Positions 2,111 through 7,407 of a DNA stretch of 64,000 nucleotides are shown piece after piece. The notes under the pieces were generated by a model. The model was not told the origin of the DNA. It was given only the letters and a program-made list of their open reading frames with translations, and ran no database searches. Origin of the DNA: an uncultured Bacteroidales bacterium (GTDB lineage: Bacteria > Bacteroidota > Bacteroidia > Bacteroidales > UBA932); contig CALVDR010000001.1 in assembly GCA_944326365.1 (NCBI GenBank), forward strand, positions 124,001 through 188,000, in the 5' to 3' direction. Both the position numbers and the translations under genes were made by a program. Position 1 is the stretch's first letter; each line of letters begins with the position of its first letter.

Positions 2111-2118
2111 TATGTTTG
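2111..2118 (+). promoter_or_regulatory. -7 box of the arginine leader transcript
   Basis: Exact TAnnTTTG match (TATGTTTG). No convincing -33 box is visible about 20 nt upstream. The predicted transcription start, about 2122-2126, would leave the leader peptide ATG at 2127 almost leaderless. Confidence 0.6.
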
Positions 2119-2366
2119 CAGCGAATATGGATTTGAGAACTAACATACCGTCTATAATGATGCCGGGCAGACGAGTCCGACGAAGTACGTCTGCAGCGTC
2201 AGTTCTCGTCCGAATCTAGGAGGGTGACCGTTCGGGGCCCCCTCAGACTTTCCAGACACACGACATAAAGGAACGCATTAATTGCAATTGACAATCGAGG
2301 TTTGTCTTGCCGTTAGGGCTTTTATTGTTTTCATGCATTAAACAGTTTAAATCATATACACAGAAA
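2119..2366 (+). promoter_or_regulatory. Arginine operon leader / putative attenuator
   Basis: Untranslated leader of about 240 nt holding the leader peptide and several alternative stems. Seen directly: GAGAACT/AGTTCTC (2135-2141, 2201-2207); GCAGACG/CGTCTGC (2167-2173, 2188-2194); a competing GACGAG/CTCGTC pair (2170-2175, 2205-2210); GAGGG/CCCTC (2220-2224, 2240-2244) that begins at the leader stop codon; and GCAA-tt-GACAA/TTGTC-TTGC (2284-2310) followed by a T-rich stretch around 2320-2331. The last is the best terminator candidate, though the T run is not immediately adjacent. The arrangement fits ribosome-mediated attenuation; the exact switch is not proven. Confidence 0.55.
2127..2219 (+). 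CDS. Arginine-rich leader peptide
   Basis: Short frame of 30 codons (ATG 2127, TAG 2217-2219) just after a -7 box and about 150 nt before the first gene of an arginine operon. The product contains GRRVRRSTSAAS; six of 30 residues are arginine, with R15, R16, R18 and R19 clustered. The Arg codons are AGA, AGA, CGA, CGA, CGA, CGA; CGA looks uncommon in the neighbouring genes by eye. The Arg run lies inside a 7-bp hairpin (2167-2173 with 2188-2194), and the frame as a whole is bracketed by a second 7-bp pairing (2135-2141 with 2201-2207). A shorter start at ATG 2157 or 2160 is possible. The role as an attenuation sensor of charged tRNA-Arg is inferred. Confidence 0.7.
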   Translation: MDLRTNIPSIMMPGRRVRRSTSAASVLVRI

Positions 2367-2939
2367 ATGGATATCGATGTTGTAGTGGCCAACAACGGCC
2401 ATGCGAAGTATGCTCAGGAAATATGCGACGAAATGTTCGTCTCGGCACAGGAAAGAGGTACGGGAATCGCCAAACGTACTCCTGAGTACATAATCGAGAA
2501 AATGAGAGCCGGGAAGGCAGTCATAGCCATAGCAAAAAACGGGAAATTCGCAGGTTTCTCCTACATCGAGACATGGGAAGGCAAGAAATATGTGGCCAAT
2601 TCCGGTCTCATTGTAGCCCATGCGTTCCGCGGTCTGGGGCTGGCAAAGAGGATCAAGCAGAGAATATTCAGACTCTCCAGGGAGAAATTCCCGGATGCGA
2701 AGATATTCAGCATCACCACCGGGGCGGCAGTCATGAAAATGAACTACGAAATCGGATTCAGACCGGTGCCGTTCGGTGAACTCACACACGACCCGGAGTT
2801 CTGGAAAGGATGTCAGGGATGCAAGAACTTCCCTATTCTCCAGAACAACAACTACAAGATGTGCCTGTGCACCGGTCTGCTGTATGACCCTAACGAACAC
2901 ATTGCCGTGCAGGATGCCGGGATCAGGGCTGCGCAATAG
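2367..2939 (+). CDS. GNAT acyltransferase at head of arginine operon
   Basis: GNAT-fold acyl-CoA transferase of 190 residues. The acyl-CoA binding loop is RGLGLA (residues about 88-93) within AHAFRGLGLAKRIKQR. A Cys-rich C-terminal part carries GCQGC and MCLC, unusual for a GNAT. The ATG at 2367 is chosen because the 20 upstream codons belong to the leader region. It is the first gene after the arginine leader and sits 71 nt before argG; a short GCACC/GGTGC hairpin lies in the gap (2964-2976). No argA or argJ is visible in the window, so this is a candidate for the first acylation of glutamate (acetyl or succinyl donor). That role is inferred from context. Confidence 0.85.
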   Translation: MDIDVVVANNGHAKYAQEICDEMFVSAQERGTGIAKRTPEYIIEKMRAGKAVIAIAKNGKFAGFSYIETWEGKKYVANSGLIVAHAFRGLGLAKRIKQRIFRLSREKFPDAKIFSITTGAAVMKMNYEIGFRPVPFGELTHDPEFWKGCQGCKNFPILQNNNYKMCLCTGLLYDPNEHIAVQDAGIRAAQ

Positions 2940-3010: not shown

Positions 3011-4222
3011 ATGAACAACAAAGTCGTACTCGCATTCAGCGGAGGTCTTGACACTTCGTTCTGCGTGCCTTATCTGAAGAATGAAAAGGGACTGGAGGTC
3101 CACACCATCATGGTGAACACCGGCGGATTCTCGAAAGAGGAAGAGAAGAAAATAGAAGAGCGTGCCCTGCAGCTCGGCGCCGCTTCGCATACGAACATCG
3201 ATGCAGTGGAGACTTACTACAAACACGGGCTCAAGTATCTCATCTACGGAAACATTCTCAAGAATGCGACCTATCCGCTGTCTGTAAGCTCGGAGCGTGT
3301 GTTCCAGGCCCTCGAAGTCCTGAAACATGTGAAGAAACTCGGGGCGGACTATGTGGCCCACGGGAGTACAGGCGCAGGCAACGACCAGGTGAGATTCGAC
3401 ATAGTATTCGAGATCCTCGCCCCTGAGGTGAAGATCCTCGCCCCTATCAGGGAACTCTCCATCACCCGTCAGGAAGAGATAAAATACCTCCAGGACCACG
3501 GGTACGAGTCATCATGGGAAAAATCGAAATATTCCATCAACCAGGGTCTCTGGGGCACGAGCATCGGAGGCGTGGAGACATTGTCTTCAGACGGATACCT
3601 TCCGGAAGAGGCATATCCTACGAAGGTGACGAAAACAGCTCCGGAGCATATCAAGATAGGTTTCGAATCAGGAGAGCCCGTATCAGTGAACGGTGAGAAG
3701 ATGTCTCCTGTGGACGTGATAAGGAAGATCAGGGACATAGCGGGACCTTTCGGTATAGGCCGTGACATCCATGTGGGCGACACCATCATAGGTATCAAGG
3801 GACGTGTGGCATTCGAGGCCGCAGCTCCGCTGATCATAATCAAGGCACACCATCTTCTCGAAAAGCATGTCCTGACCAAAGGCCAGCTCTACTGGAAAGA
3901 CCAGATAGCAGGATGGTACGGGCAGCAGATGCATGAAGCCATGTATCTCGATCCGGTTCTCAGGGACATGGAAGCCATGATGGACAACATGGAGAAGCAT
4001 GTGAGCGGTGAAGTGGAAGTGGCCCTGATGCCATATCATTTCGCAGTGCTGGGATGCTCAAGCAGCCATGACCTGATGAGCTCGAAGTTCGGTTCATACG
4101 GAGAAATCAACAAGTCTTACACAGGAGCTGACGTGGTAGGATTCACGAAGGTGCTTGCAAATCCTCTGAAAATCTACTACAGCGTGAACAGCGAACACGC
4201 GGAAGACGTAGTGAAAGACTGA
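3011..4222 (+). CDS. argG: Argininosuccinate synthase
   Basis: Condenses citrulline and aspartate with ATP to argininosuccinate in the cytosol. The protein has 403 residues, normal for the family. The PP-loop motif AFSGGLDTS is at residues 8-16, and citrulline/aspartate-binding elements such as HGSTGAGNDQVRF follow near residue 117. It is the second gene of the leader-controlled block GNAT-argG-argC-argD, 17 nt before argC. No oddities in length or motifs. Confidence 0.97.
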   Translation: MNNKVVLAFSGGLDTSFCVPYLKNEKGLEVHTIMVNTGGFSKEEEKKIEERALQLGAASHTNIDAVETYYKHGLKYLIYGNILKNATYPLSVSSERVFQALEVLKHVKKLGADYVAHGSTGAGNDQVRFDIVFEILAPEVKILAPIRELSITRQEEIKYLQDHGYESSWEKSKYSINQGLWGTSIGGVETLSSDGYLPEEAYPTKVTKTAPEHIKIGFESGEPVSVNGEKMSPVDVIRKIRDIAGPFGIGRDIHVGDTIIGIKGRVAFEAAAPLIIIKAHHLLEKHVLTKGQLYWKDQIAGWYGQQMHEAMYLDPVLRDMEAMMDNMEKHVSGEVEVALMPYHFAVLGCSSSHDLMSSKFGSYGEINKSYTGADVVGFTKVLANPLKIYYSVNSEHAEDVVKD

Positions 4223-4239: not shown

Positions 4240-5211
4240 ATGATAAAAGCAGCGATAGCAGGAGGTACGGGATACACCGGAGGAGAACTTCTCAGGATTC
4301 TCCTCCGGCATCCTGAAGTGGAAGTGGTGGCAGCCACCACGACATCATCGGAAGGGGTGCCTGTCAGCGACATACACCGTGATCTCATCGGCGAAACAGA
4401 TCTGGAATTCGGAACGGAACTGAATGAGCCGGATGTGATTTTCCTCTGTCTGGGACACGGTCTGTCACGTGAATTCATCGATACACATGAAATCAGCGGG
4501 TCATGCAGGATCATCGACCTGGGAAATGATTTCAGACTGGACGGGAACTATGCCGGAAGGAAATTCGTATACGGTCTCTGCGAAAGTGCAAAGGACGACA
4601 TCAGGAAGGCGCATGACATCGCGAATCCCGGATGTTTCGCCACGGCCATCCAGCTGGCTCTCCTGCCGCTTGCAGGGAACGGGCTCATCAGGGACGAAAT
4701 CCACGTGACTGCCATCACTGGGTCTACGGGGGCCGGAAAGAAACTGGCGGAAACCTCCCACTTCAGCTACCGTGAAAGCAATATTTCCATTTACAAGCTT
4801 TTCACACATCAGCATCTGGCTGAAATCAGACAGAATATCGGCAGGATTTCCGGACAGGAACCGACAGTGAATTTCGTACCGATGAGAGGAGATTTCACCA
4901 GAGGCATTTTTGCAAGCGTCTATACCAGGGCTGTCAAGGGAATGACTGAAGAGCAATATGTAAGCGTGTTCGAAGACTGGTACAGGGACTCCCCTTTCGT
5001 TTTCCACTCAGGAAAAGGAATTTCCCTGAAAGAAGTCATCAACACGAACAAGGGGCTGGTACATGTCGAACTTCATGACGGCTACGTACATATCAGTTCA
5101 GTCATCGACAACCTGGTGAAAGGCGCATCCGGACAGGCTGTCCAGAACATGAACCTGATGTTCGGGCTGGACGAGACAGCCGGGCTCCGCCTCAAACCTT
5201 CGGCATTCTGA
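4240..5211 (+). CDS. argC: N-acyl-gamma-glutamyl-phosphate reductase
   Basis: NADPH-dependent reductase that converts acylglutamyl phosphate to the semialdehyde, the third step of arginine synthesis. It has 323 residues. The dinucleotide loop GGTGYTGGELL is at 8-18, and the catalytic cysteine is C132 in NPGCFAT. Further conserved segments are GSTGAGK and VPMRGDFTRG. It lies 17 nt after argG and 51 nt before argD. Whether the natural substrate carries an acetyl or succinyl group cannot be read from this protein. Confidence 0.96.
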   Translation: MIKAAIAGGTGYTGGELLRILLRHPEVEVVAATTTSSEGVPVSDIHRDLIGETDLEFGTELNEPDVIFLCLGHGLSREFIDTHEISGSCRIIDLGNDFRLDGNYAGRKFVYGLCESAKDDIRKAHDIANPGCFATAIQLALLPLAGNGLIRDEIHVTAITGSTGAGKKLAETSHFSYRESNISIYKLFTHQHLAEIRQNIGRISGQEPTVNFVPMRGDFTRGIFASVYTRAVKGMTEEQYVSVFEDWYRDSPFVFHSGKGISLKEVINTNKGLVHVELHDGYVHISSVIDNLVKGASGQAVQNMNLMFGLDETAGLRLKPSAF

Positions 5212-5262: not shown

Positions 5263-6399
5263 ATGGAATTATTCAAAGTATACAAACTGTGGGATATCGA
5301 ACCGGTAAAAGGTCTCGATACCACCCTGTGGGACGCTGACGGCAATGAATACACGGACCTGTACGGAGGCCATGCCGTCATTTCCGTAGGGCACTGCCAC
5401 CCGCACTATGTGAAGGCCGTCACAGACCAGCTGAACAAGCTCGGGTTCTACTCGAACGCCGTGCAGAATTCCCTGCAGAAAGAACTGGCGCACAAGCTCG
5501 GAAAGGCCAGCGGGTACGATGATTATTCGCTTTTCCTCTGCAATTCAGGGGCCGAGGCCAATGAGAACGCCATGAAGCTGGCTTCGTTCCAGACCGGAAG
5601 GGCCAAAATCCTCGCCTTCGGCAAAGCGTTTCATGGCAGGACCTCAGGAGCGGTAGCCGTCACTGACAATCCCAAGATACAGTCCCCGTTCAATTCCACA
5701 AAGAATGTCACTTTAGTGCCTTTGAATGATCTGGAAGCCACAGAACAGGCCCTGATGACCGGAGAATATGCCGGAGTCATCATCGAAGGCATACAGGGAG
5801 TGGCGGGAATATATGAACCGTCGGACGATTTTCTCAAATCGCTCAGAGAACTCTGCGACCGGACAGGGACAATGCTGATTCTGGACGAGATCCAGTCTGG
5901 CTACGGACGTACAGGACTGTTCTTCGCACACCAGCACGCAGGAATCCGTGCAGACATCATCACTACTGCCAAAGGCATGGCGAACGGTTTTCCTATCGGA
6001 GGCGTGCTCATATCACCTGCATTCAAAGCTGAATACGGTATGCTCGGCACCACCTTCGGCGGCAATCACCTGGCCTGCGCCGCTGCCATAGCAGTACTAG
6101 AAATCATCGGAAGCGAACATCTGGTGGAGAATGCGGCGAAAATCGGGGAATATTTCAGGAATGCACTCTGCCCTGACGGACAGCCGATACACCCGATCAA
6201 AGAGTACCGCGGACGCGGACTTATGATAGGGCTTGAAGTGAAGGACGGATACGAAGACCTTCGTAACAGACTCCTGTTCGAAGAGCATTTCTTCACCGGA
6301 GCGGCCGGTCCCAAGGTCATCAGGCTTCTGCCGTCCCTGACCATCTCCGAAGAAACCGCTTCACGATTCGTCTCCGCACTGAAGAAACTCTCCGAGTGA
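5263..6399 (+). CDS. argD: Acylornithine aminotransferase
   Basis: Class-III PLP aminotransferase, 378 residues, forming N-acylornithine from the semialdehyde with glutamate as donor. Visible features are NSGAEANENAMKLA near residue 94, the cofactor aspartate in LILDEIQSGYGRTG (D208), and the Schiff-base lysine K237 in TTAKGMANGFPIGG. It is the last intact gene of the first arginine block; in many Bacteroidales proC follows, but here a decayed ATPase gene follows instead. Confusion with other class-III transaminases is unlikely given the arg neighbours. Confidence 0.95.
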   Translation: MELFKVYKLWDIEPVKGLDTTLWDADGNEYTDLYGGHAVISVGHCHPHYVKAVTDQLNKLGFYSNAVQNSLQKELAHKLGKASGYDDYSLFLCNSGAEANENAMKLASFQTGRAKILAFGKAFHGRTSGAVAVTDNPKIQSPFNSTKNVTLVPLNDLEATEQALMTGEYAGVIIEGIQGVAGIYEPSDDFLKSLRELCDRTGTMLILDEIQSGYGRTGLFFAHQHAGIRADIITTAKGMANGFPIGGVLISPAFKAEYGMLGTTFGGNHLACAAAIAVLEIIGSEHLVENAAKIGEYFRNALCPDGQPIHPIKEYRGRGLMIGLEVKDGYEDLRNRLLFEEHFFTGAAGPKVIRLLPSLTISEETASRFVSALKKLSE

Positions 6400-6462: not shown

Positions 6463-7407
6463 CGGGGACTCTATGGCAGGCTGACAAGACAGATACACCT
6501 GTCGCCTCTGACATTGGGAGAAACTGAAAAACTGATGGTTTCAAACGGGATAGAACTGGACAAATACGACATTGTCCAGAGCTATATGATTTTTGGAGGC
6601 ATTCCATACTACATAAATGCCTTTACGAAAGGTAAAAGTCTTTCGTGGAATGTTGATCATCTGATCTTCGGACGAGATGCCGCCTTTTCCGATGAATTCG
6701 ACAGAATGTTCGACTCGCTTTTTGTAAATAGTGCCGAATACAAAAGAATGATACGATTCATATCCAAATCGAAATCAGGATTTACAAGAGAAGAAATAGC
6801 ATCCGGCATAGTCACCTCAGGAGGTTATTTAACCAAAATGCTGAAAACACTGAAAGAAAACGGTTTTATTTCAGCATTCCGGGACTTCAGCGGCAAGTCC
6901 AAAAATACAAGATATAAAGTAACGGATCCATTCTGCCTGTTCTATCTGCGGTTTAATGACCACAAAACGACTCAAGACGAAATGTTCTGGCAAAACAATC
7001 AGTTTTTACCTGCTGTCAATACATGGAGAGGTTTCGCTTTTGAGAATGTTTGTTTTCTGCATATTCCTCAGATTAAGTCCGCTCTGGGTATTGCAAGTGT
7101 GGCGACTGATGTCAGTTCATGGTCATTCAAAGGAAATGAAATCCATGACGGGACGCAAATTGACATGTTGGTTTCGCGTGCGGACAGGATTATAAACCTG
7201 TGCGAAATCAAATTCAGTGTTTCAGAATATGTAATAACGAAAGAATATGATGAACGGCTTCGGAAAAGGATGCAGACATTCATGGAAGTAGTCCGGCCGA
7301 AGTATGCCATTCACAATACATTGATCACCACATACGGTTTGAAGCAGAATAACTATTCTTCCCGTTTTCAGAACGTAATCACATTACAGGATCTGTTTGG
7401 CAAGTAA
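6463..7407 (+). pseudogene. 5'-truncated AAA ATPase with DUF234/PD-(D/E)XK tail
   Basis: C-terminal part of the archaeal-type ATPase family whose members are usually 430-500 residues with an N-terminal P-loop ATPase. Recognisable similarity begins at about 6463 (reading RGLYGRLTRQIHLSPLTLGE), but the frame has a TGA at 6418 and no ATG before that point; the first candidate start is TTG at 6514. Walker A and B regions are absent. The middle winged-helix part and the C-terminal nuclease-like motif (GTQIDMLV...LCEIKF) are intact to the stop. Base composition is clearly more AT-rich than the arginine genes, suggesting acquisition then 5' deletion. A short expressed remnant cannot be excluded. Confidence 0.8.

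Follow-up and report, generated by a model that had tools for sequence, protein, structure and literature searches.

The region between the promoter and the arginine biosynthesis operon in our window (the whole 64,000-nt stretch of uncultured Bacteroidales DNA analysed here) is probably, at roughly 70%, a leader-peptide regulator that senses arginine and stands in for the repressor ArgR of sister species. Leader-peptide control is of a known kind; what is new is the arginine operon under it, the single obligatory CGA codon, a hairpin that we call P2, and the repeated exchange with ArgR. A literature search that left subscription journals mostly uncovered, so that absence is not proof, found neither an arginine leader peptide in Bacteroidetes nor the combination of such leaders with replacement of ArgR, in keeping with an earlier sequence-only reading of this DNA that could name no arginine attenuator for Bacteroidales. 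A passage in a Flavobacterium transcriptome paper offers leader-peptide clues for amino-acid operons and does not name arginine. The leader would add arginine biosynthesis to the operons apparently under leader-peptide control in Bacteroidales, a kind of control that has been little mapped in this order; the comparison also reveals a near-invariant RNA hairpin in P2.

A leader frame with an obligatory CGA codon

The host genome of the window is 2.78 Mb and 98.5% complete, with Candidatus Cryptobacteroides among its close relatives. All of the parts that the sequence-only reading had listed around the leader, namely a -7 box, a 30-codon frame, six arginine codons with four of them clustered at R15-R19, a hairpin at the leader stop codon and the GNAT-argG-argC-argD genes downstream, were found (Table 1). 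The six arginine codons are two AGA and four CGA. CGA accounts for only 2.8% of the arginine codons in the window genes (6/213), against 4/6 in the window leader (binomial p 9e-6) and 57% (107/187) in the leaders of its relatives taken together; arginine likewise makes up 17.1% of leader residues as compared with 5.0% in the window genes. Downstream of argD, a 297-aa frame (6514-7407, +) resembles a DUF4143-type ATPase in its C-terminal portion, and we take it to be possibly a truncated gene.

Table 1. Positions of the promoter, leader, RNA and operon features within the window.
Feature	Position	Strand	Basis or remark
-7 promoter box (Bacteroidetes type), TATGTTTG	2111-2118	+	sequence read; -7-like box in relatives
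Leader ORF, MDLRTNIPSIMMPGRRVRRSTSAASVLVRI and stop	2127-2219	+	30 codons, ATG 2127, TAG 2217-2219; 51 distinct in-frame leaders compared
Codon 7, ATA	2145-2147	+	leader comparison
First GTC CGA CGA site (V17 R18 R19)	2175-2183	+	33 nt 5' of last GTCCGA; long leaders only
P0 stem, first to last Arg site, GACGA/TCGTC in the window	2179-2210	+	window's subclade only; as many as 10 bp in sister loci
Proposed sensor codon R29, the invariant CGA in last-but-one sense position	2211-2213	+	51/51 distinct leaders
P1 hairpin, stop TAG within AGGAGGG, 3' arm CCCCCTC	2217-2245	+	locus comparison, constrained folding
P2 hairpin, GCAA-[UN]-GACAA-UCNMGGU-UUGUC-UUGC plus lower stem, bulge 2288-2289	2279-2315	+	near-invariant; single copy in genome
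T-rich stretch 3' of P2	2316-2337	+	not conserved
GNAT acetyltransferase, first gene of the operon	2367-2939	+	PF00583
argG, argininosuccinate synthase	3011-4222	+	PF00764
argC, N-acyl-glutamyl-phosphate reductase	4240-5211	+	semialdehyde dehydrogenase domains; name from operon context
argD, class-III aminotransferase	5263-6399	+	PF00202; name from operon context

We compared the regions upstream of GNAT in 58 genomes of the genus and on 80 named contigs, about 47 of the latter belonging to this group. A strict screen, which required a short ATG frame directly behind a -7 box with at least three Arg, was passed by 47 of 70 ArgR-less relatives (ArgR status being assumed for some of the named contigs), as compared with 0.6 expected from dinucleotide-preserving shuffles. 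In almost every relative, a -7-like box lies 14-18 nt ahead of the leader ATG. The sequence-only reading had staked itself on the conservation of the frame and its arginine codons in relatives, and both were conserved: CGA is the last-but-one sense codon in every one of the 51 distinct leaders, which range from 11 to 31 codons, and the codon ahead of it always fits GNC (GTC in 43, GAC in 5, GCC in 2 and GGC in 1, for V, D, A or G). One locus, L032, is an exception in that its TAG has become CAG and the frame extends three codons further. Because the final CGA was used to locate the leaders, a fairer test of codon bias leaves out the last two codons; CGA still makes up 55 of the remaining 122 arginine codons, a bias with a nominal p of about 2e-51 among leaders that are related by descent. 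The leader-end pattern gave three extra matches elsewhere that we read (G082, G025 and G067), all of them without the module, and the one in G082 lies inside a 476-aa frame.

The shortest leaders, such as MIKIGNIFVRL, contain a single arginine codon, the CGA at codon 10 of 11. As judged from these alignments, the leader is kept as a frame and not as a peptide, its invariant core is CGA-NNN-stop, and the R15-R19 run is a local elaboration, since the shortest leaders keep one arginine codon only. The arginine run, which had been taken for the essential sensor, is thus not supported in that role; the proposed sensor, one obligatory slow codon next to the stop, would be of an unusually bare design. 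Outside subgroup 1b and part of classes 2 and 3, all 39 of 39 distinct leaders have ATA as codon 7, whatever their length; in the window genes, ATA makes up 36% of isoleucine codons. That the frame encodes an ordinary small protein whose arginine codons serve another purpose is very improbable: beyond the existence of the frame nothing speaks for it, whereas the leader sequences diverge freely except at codon 7 and the CGA near the stop, their lengths vary threefold, and the module excludes ArgR.

Mutual exclusion of the leader module and ArgR

Control of the operon by ArgR would call for an ArgR gene, and a search for the ArgR C-terminal domain found none in the window's genome; the same search was positive in Bacteroides and other controls. 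Among the 101 sampled genomes of the genus, argG and GNAT were found in the same 58, and 33 of these 58 encode ArgR, mostly right beside GNAT. The leader/P2 module was present in 23 of the 25 ArgR-less genomes and in none of the 33 ArgR-bearing ones (Fisher p 3e-14, with species that are not independent), the zero meaning that neither leader nor downstream element was seen in the stretches that we read. The 23 take in L019, which has P2 and no usual leader, and L005, whose contig starts downstream of the leader. In 25 further genomes, ArgR was found in two only, both leader-less. Neither ArgR nor a leader was found in seven sampled relatives (G027, G098, L063-L065, L067 and L073), some of whose genomes are incomplete.

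On a GNAT tree of 89 rows, the state of ArgR has to change eight times, with well-supported branches forcing at least five of the changes, and ArgR-bearing groups fall within leader-bearing ones; as far as this gene tree can tell, several independent swaps between leader and ArgR are required. Repetition of this kind is difficult to account for if leader and ArgR have different jobs. ArgR, encoded beside the GNAT-argG operon in other Bacteroidales, serves the same operon and the same presumed signal, but it is a protein repressor, absent here and present, mostly adjoining GNAT, in leader-less sister species. Comparison over dozens of species indicates that one operon can be served interchangeably by a leader peptide or by a DNA-binding repressor, and that the two have been swapped several times among close relatives.

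Arginine leaders also occur beyond the genus. Among ArgR-less Bacteroidales outside it, 6 of 28 upstream regions passed the strict screen as compared with 0.1 expected; one of them, L214, passed the automatic screen only and was left out of the family list made by eye. By eye, we detected leaders ahead of the same operon in the ArgR-less families f1, f19, f64, f93 and f74, ending, before the stop, in HVRRYA, RRVRRCA, GLVRRCR, SPRPALG or SPRPGRG, SLNRRESRR and, less clearly, YRFRCLFRCPIRE. On this sequence evidence, at least four further ArgR-less families of Bacteroidales have leaders bearing arginine codons ahead of the operon. In other families, many ArgR-less genomes showed no leader upstream, so that leaders recur without being universal. 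Taken together, the exclusion with ArgR, the repeated swaps and the arginine leaders in other ArgR-less families suggest that arginine leader peptides replace ArgR in these genomes, as they appear to do from their distribution.

The RNA downstream of the leader differs between lineages. In family f64 (L200, L211, L216 and L222, with leaders ending in SPRPALG or SPRPGRG), a GC-rich hairpin lies at the stop codon and is accompanied by a second hairpin with an ACGUA-like loop, and changes in the stem of this second hairpin appear to keep pairing.

Several observations concern the neighbouring gene content. A divergent gene (1801-2061, -) for an 86-aa ribbon-helix-helix-like protein with a weak DUF6290 match was considered as a regulator and rejected; it is a conserved neighbour that adjoins the leader in many relatives, but it is missing beside many leaders. 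Subgroup 1b, which bears the leader (G008, G015, G058, G065, G080 and G097), has an argG only about 51-53% identical to that of the window's genome (G000) and a GNAT 68-73% identical to it, which suggests that argG was replaced behind a retained leader. Allowing for incompleteness, the 43 of 101 sampled Cryptobacteroides genomes that lack argG are probable arginine auxotrophs, and at least six of them (e.g., G019, G020, G028, G034, G083 and G093) still have an ArgR-domain protein.

RNA hairpins between the leader and the operon

The folding energy of the whole region is ordinary (z -0.31), so structure alone proves nothing and the comparison of loci has to carry the argument. P1 starts within the stop codon and forms between AGGAGGG and a pyrimidine arm further 3', which reads CCCTC or CCTCC in most loci. 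Changes in the inner part of P1 and in the outer extension found in subgroup 1b mostly keep pairing (GAAGAU/AUCUUC in L018 and GAGUGU/ACACUC in L060), though some subgroup 1b members have mismatches in P1; we detected no covariation in its conserved arms, and the extra arms covary only in part. In constrained folding, P1 has a mean probability of about 0.95 on ribosome-free RNA and of 0 with a ribosome at the CGA or the stop, the zero arising because the ribosome footprint masks the 5' arm of P1 in the calculation.

The two mutually exclusive stems that the sequence-only reading drew across the arginine run (2167-2194 and 2170-2210) both exist in the sequence, but the first recurs only in the nearest relative, L032. 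The pairing between the first and last GUCCGA sites, 33 nt apart, forms at least 6 bp in 13 of 16 members of the window's subclade, 5 bp in two, the window among them, and 3 bp in one; confined to this subclade, it cannot make exclusive stems a general feature of the leader.

P2, a hairpin of about 40 nt, has a bulge of two bases and a loop of seven. No other stretch of the region is as well conserved, with 29 of 52 alignment columns invariant in 34 distinct sequences. No covariation was found in P2, and 10 of its 13 pairs never vary; because it hardly varies, covariation cannot test it, and the modelled structure is based on predicted pairing together with changes in one partner only that leave the pair intact (U-G/U-A). 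P2 always stands in the operon orientation, at a distance of 23 to 122 nt from the start of GNAT, and this favours an RNA over a DNA operator. As a genome-wide motif P2 was rejected: with up to 3 mismatches allowed, the window's genome has one copy, and four 2-mismatch matches elsewhere are at about chance level by our own estimate. It was not found in viral contigs, nor with a covariance model outside Cryptobacteroides in 295 genomes of the order. P2 as coding sequence was also rejected: by eye, a stop at the variable loop (ATC TAG) interrupts one of the frames in some loci, and variation is missing from most synonymous positions.

What had been described as a late hairpin with a T-rich tail is P2, and the tail turned out to be clade-specific. 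P2 as a terminator was discarded on this ground and on an empty terminator scan, which found no intrinsic terminator in the window between 2050 and 2420. P1 and P2 as alternative structures were likewise discarded, the mean probability of P2 being 0.80 versus 0.77 across ribosome positions; in the modelled stall, P1 is blocked by the footprint and P2 folds either way. A classical switch between terminator and antiterminator, for which a hairpin with a U-run would be needed, is not supported: the window has no such terminator, and P2 folds regardless of a ribosome on the leader.

The conservation of P2, its single copy in the window's genome and its constant orientation could instead mean that P2 is the primary regulator, bound by arginine or by a protein with affinity for RNA or DNA, and that the leader peptide has an accessory part; in L019, P2 directly follows the promoter with no usual leader. 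We regard this as rather unlikely, since leaders without P2 (classes 2 and 3 and other families) also occur in ArgR-less genomes, P2 was not found outside the genus, and the L019 genome is only 63% complete.

An arginine sandwich motif has been described in HIV TAR and 7SK (PMC6189040). The P2 bulge resembles it, with A-[U,N]-G-A opposite U-C-U including the cap-forming U, and shows its layout of an A-U pair, a bulged U, a G-C pair and an A-U pair; in every sequence the bulge opens with U, followed by a free position (U, C or G). This likeness, noted after the fact, extends to a few positions and to layout only. We consider it a long shot that the module is a two-input sensor in which the CGA would read charged tRNA-Arg and P2 would be an arginine-binding RNA of TAR-like sandwich type, which, if true, would make P2 a bacterial riboswitch for arginine that acts jointly with a leader peptide.

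Proposed mechanism, polarity and known systems

In the leader-peptide model that we favour, transcription would start a few bases ahead of the leader ATG, and a ribosome would read the leader to the obligatory rare CGA, followed by one more codon and the stop within AGGAGGG. With charged tRNA-Arg in short supply, this ribosome would wait at the CGA, its footprint covering the 5' arm of P1; with plenty of arginine, it would finish and leave, and P1 would form. Formation of P1 would lower operon expression, with arginine starvation as the ON state. That the leader is translated and that ribosomes stall on it are steps that we infer, and P2 may be part of the read-out, as a pause site, in factor-dependent termination, in RNA stability or as a site for a ligand or protein. 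In most class-2 relatives, a hairpin at the place of P1 is followed by a U-run and looks by eye like an intrinsic terminator, which suggests that expression falls when P1 forms and rises under starvation. The window lacks an intrinsic terminator of this kind, so its read-out must differ, perhaps by factor-dependent termination, pausing or RNA decay.

The main rival keeps the same leader and reverses its polarity: with ample arginine, ribosomes would dwell at the stop codon and prevent P1, and under starvation a stall at the first arginine cluster would let P1 form and turn the operon ON through mRNA stability or protection from Rho. Such logic has been described for the arginine-codon leader of Salmonella orf34-speF (PMC6386406), and the missing U-run terminator fits a read-out by Rho or RNase. 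Long leaders, including that of the window, have a GTCCGACGA cluster 33 nt upstream of the last CGA, where strong starvation could hold ribosomes, leave P1 free and reverse the polarity, so this rival could apply to them. However, the 11-codon leaders have their CGA at codon 10 and no upstream arginine cluster, the only conserved stall site covers P1, and the U-run in most class-2 relatives argues against reversal. On balance we hold the reversed polarity to be unlikely, though the likeliest of the alternatives.

Salmonella orf34 is the closest studied precedent for the leader-peptide model. In this leader of speF (orf34/speFL), arginine codons sense arginine and a hairpin lies just 3' of the stop, with a read-out by Rho and RNase G that has been shown (PMC6386406). 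The window leader shares the arginine codons in a short leader and the hairpin just downstream of its stop, but orf34 controls ornithine decarboxylase and not arginine synthesis, its peptide has a conserved domain (DUF2618), and it belongs to gammaproteobacteria.

As to the longer-known attenuators, the his, trp, leu and ilv operons of enterobacteria are under ribosome-mediated attenuation. The window locus resembles them in having, just ahead of the operon, a short conserved leader frame rich in codons of the regulated amino acid, rare ones included, and hairpins that overlap the stall site. It differs from them in that the amino acid is arginine, one invariant CGA can suffice, the leader appears to replace a repressor, no intrinsic terminator with a U-run or antiterminator pair was found in the window, and P2 is an extra hairpin. 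Within Bacteroidetes, the Bacteroid-trp RNA motif is, to judge by its name, linked to trp genes. This motif (RF01692) is listed as cis-regulatory (PMC2864571), but no Rfam family matches the window region above its gathering score and P2 belongs to no Rfam family; a scan of the other leader classes gave weak sub-threshold matches to eukaryotic families only. Between the terminator-like hairpin and GNAT, the class-2 loci L056, L062, L068-L072 and L075 carry a small hairpin with the loop CAGCAGAA (GGGA/UCCC, GAAGA/UCUUC).
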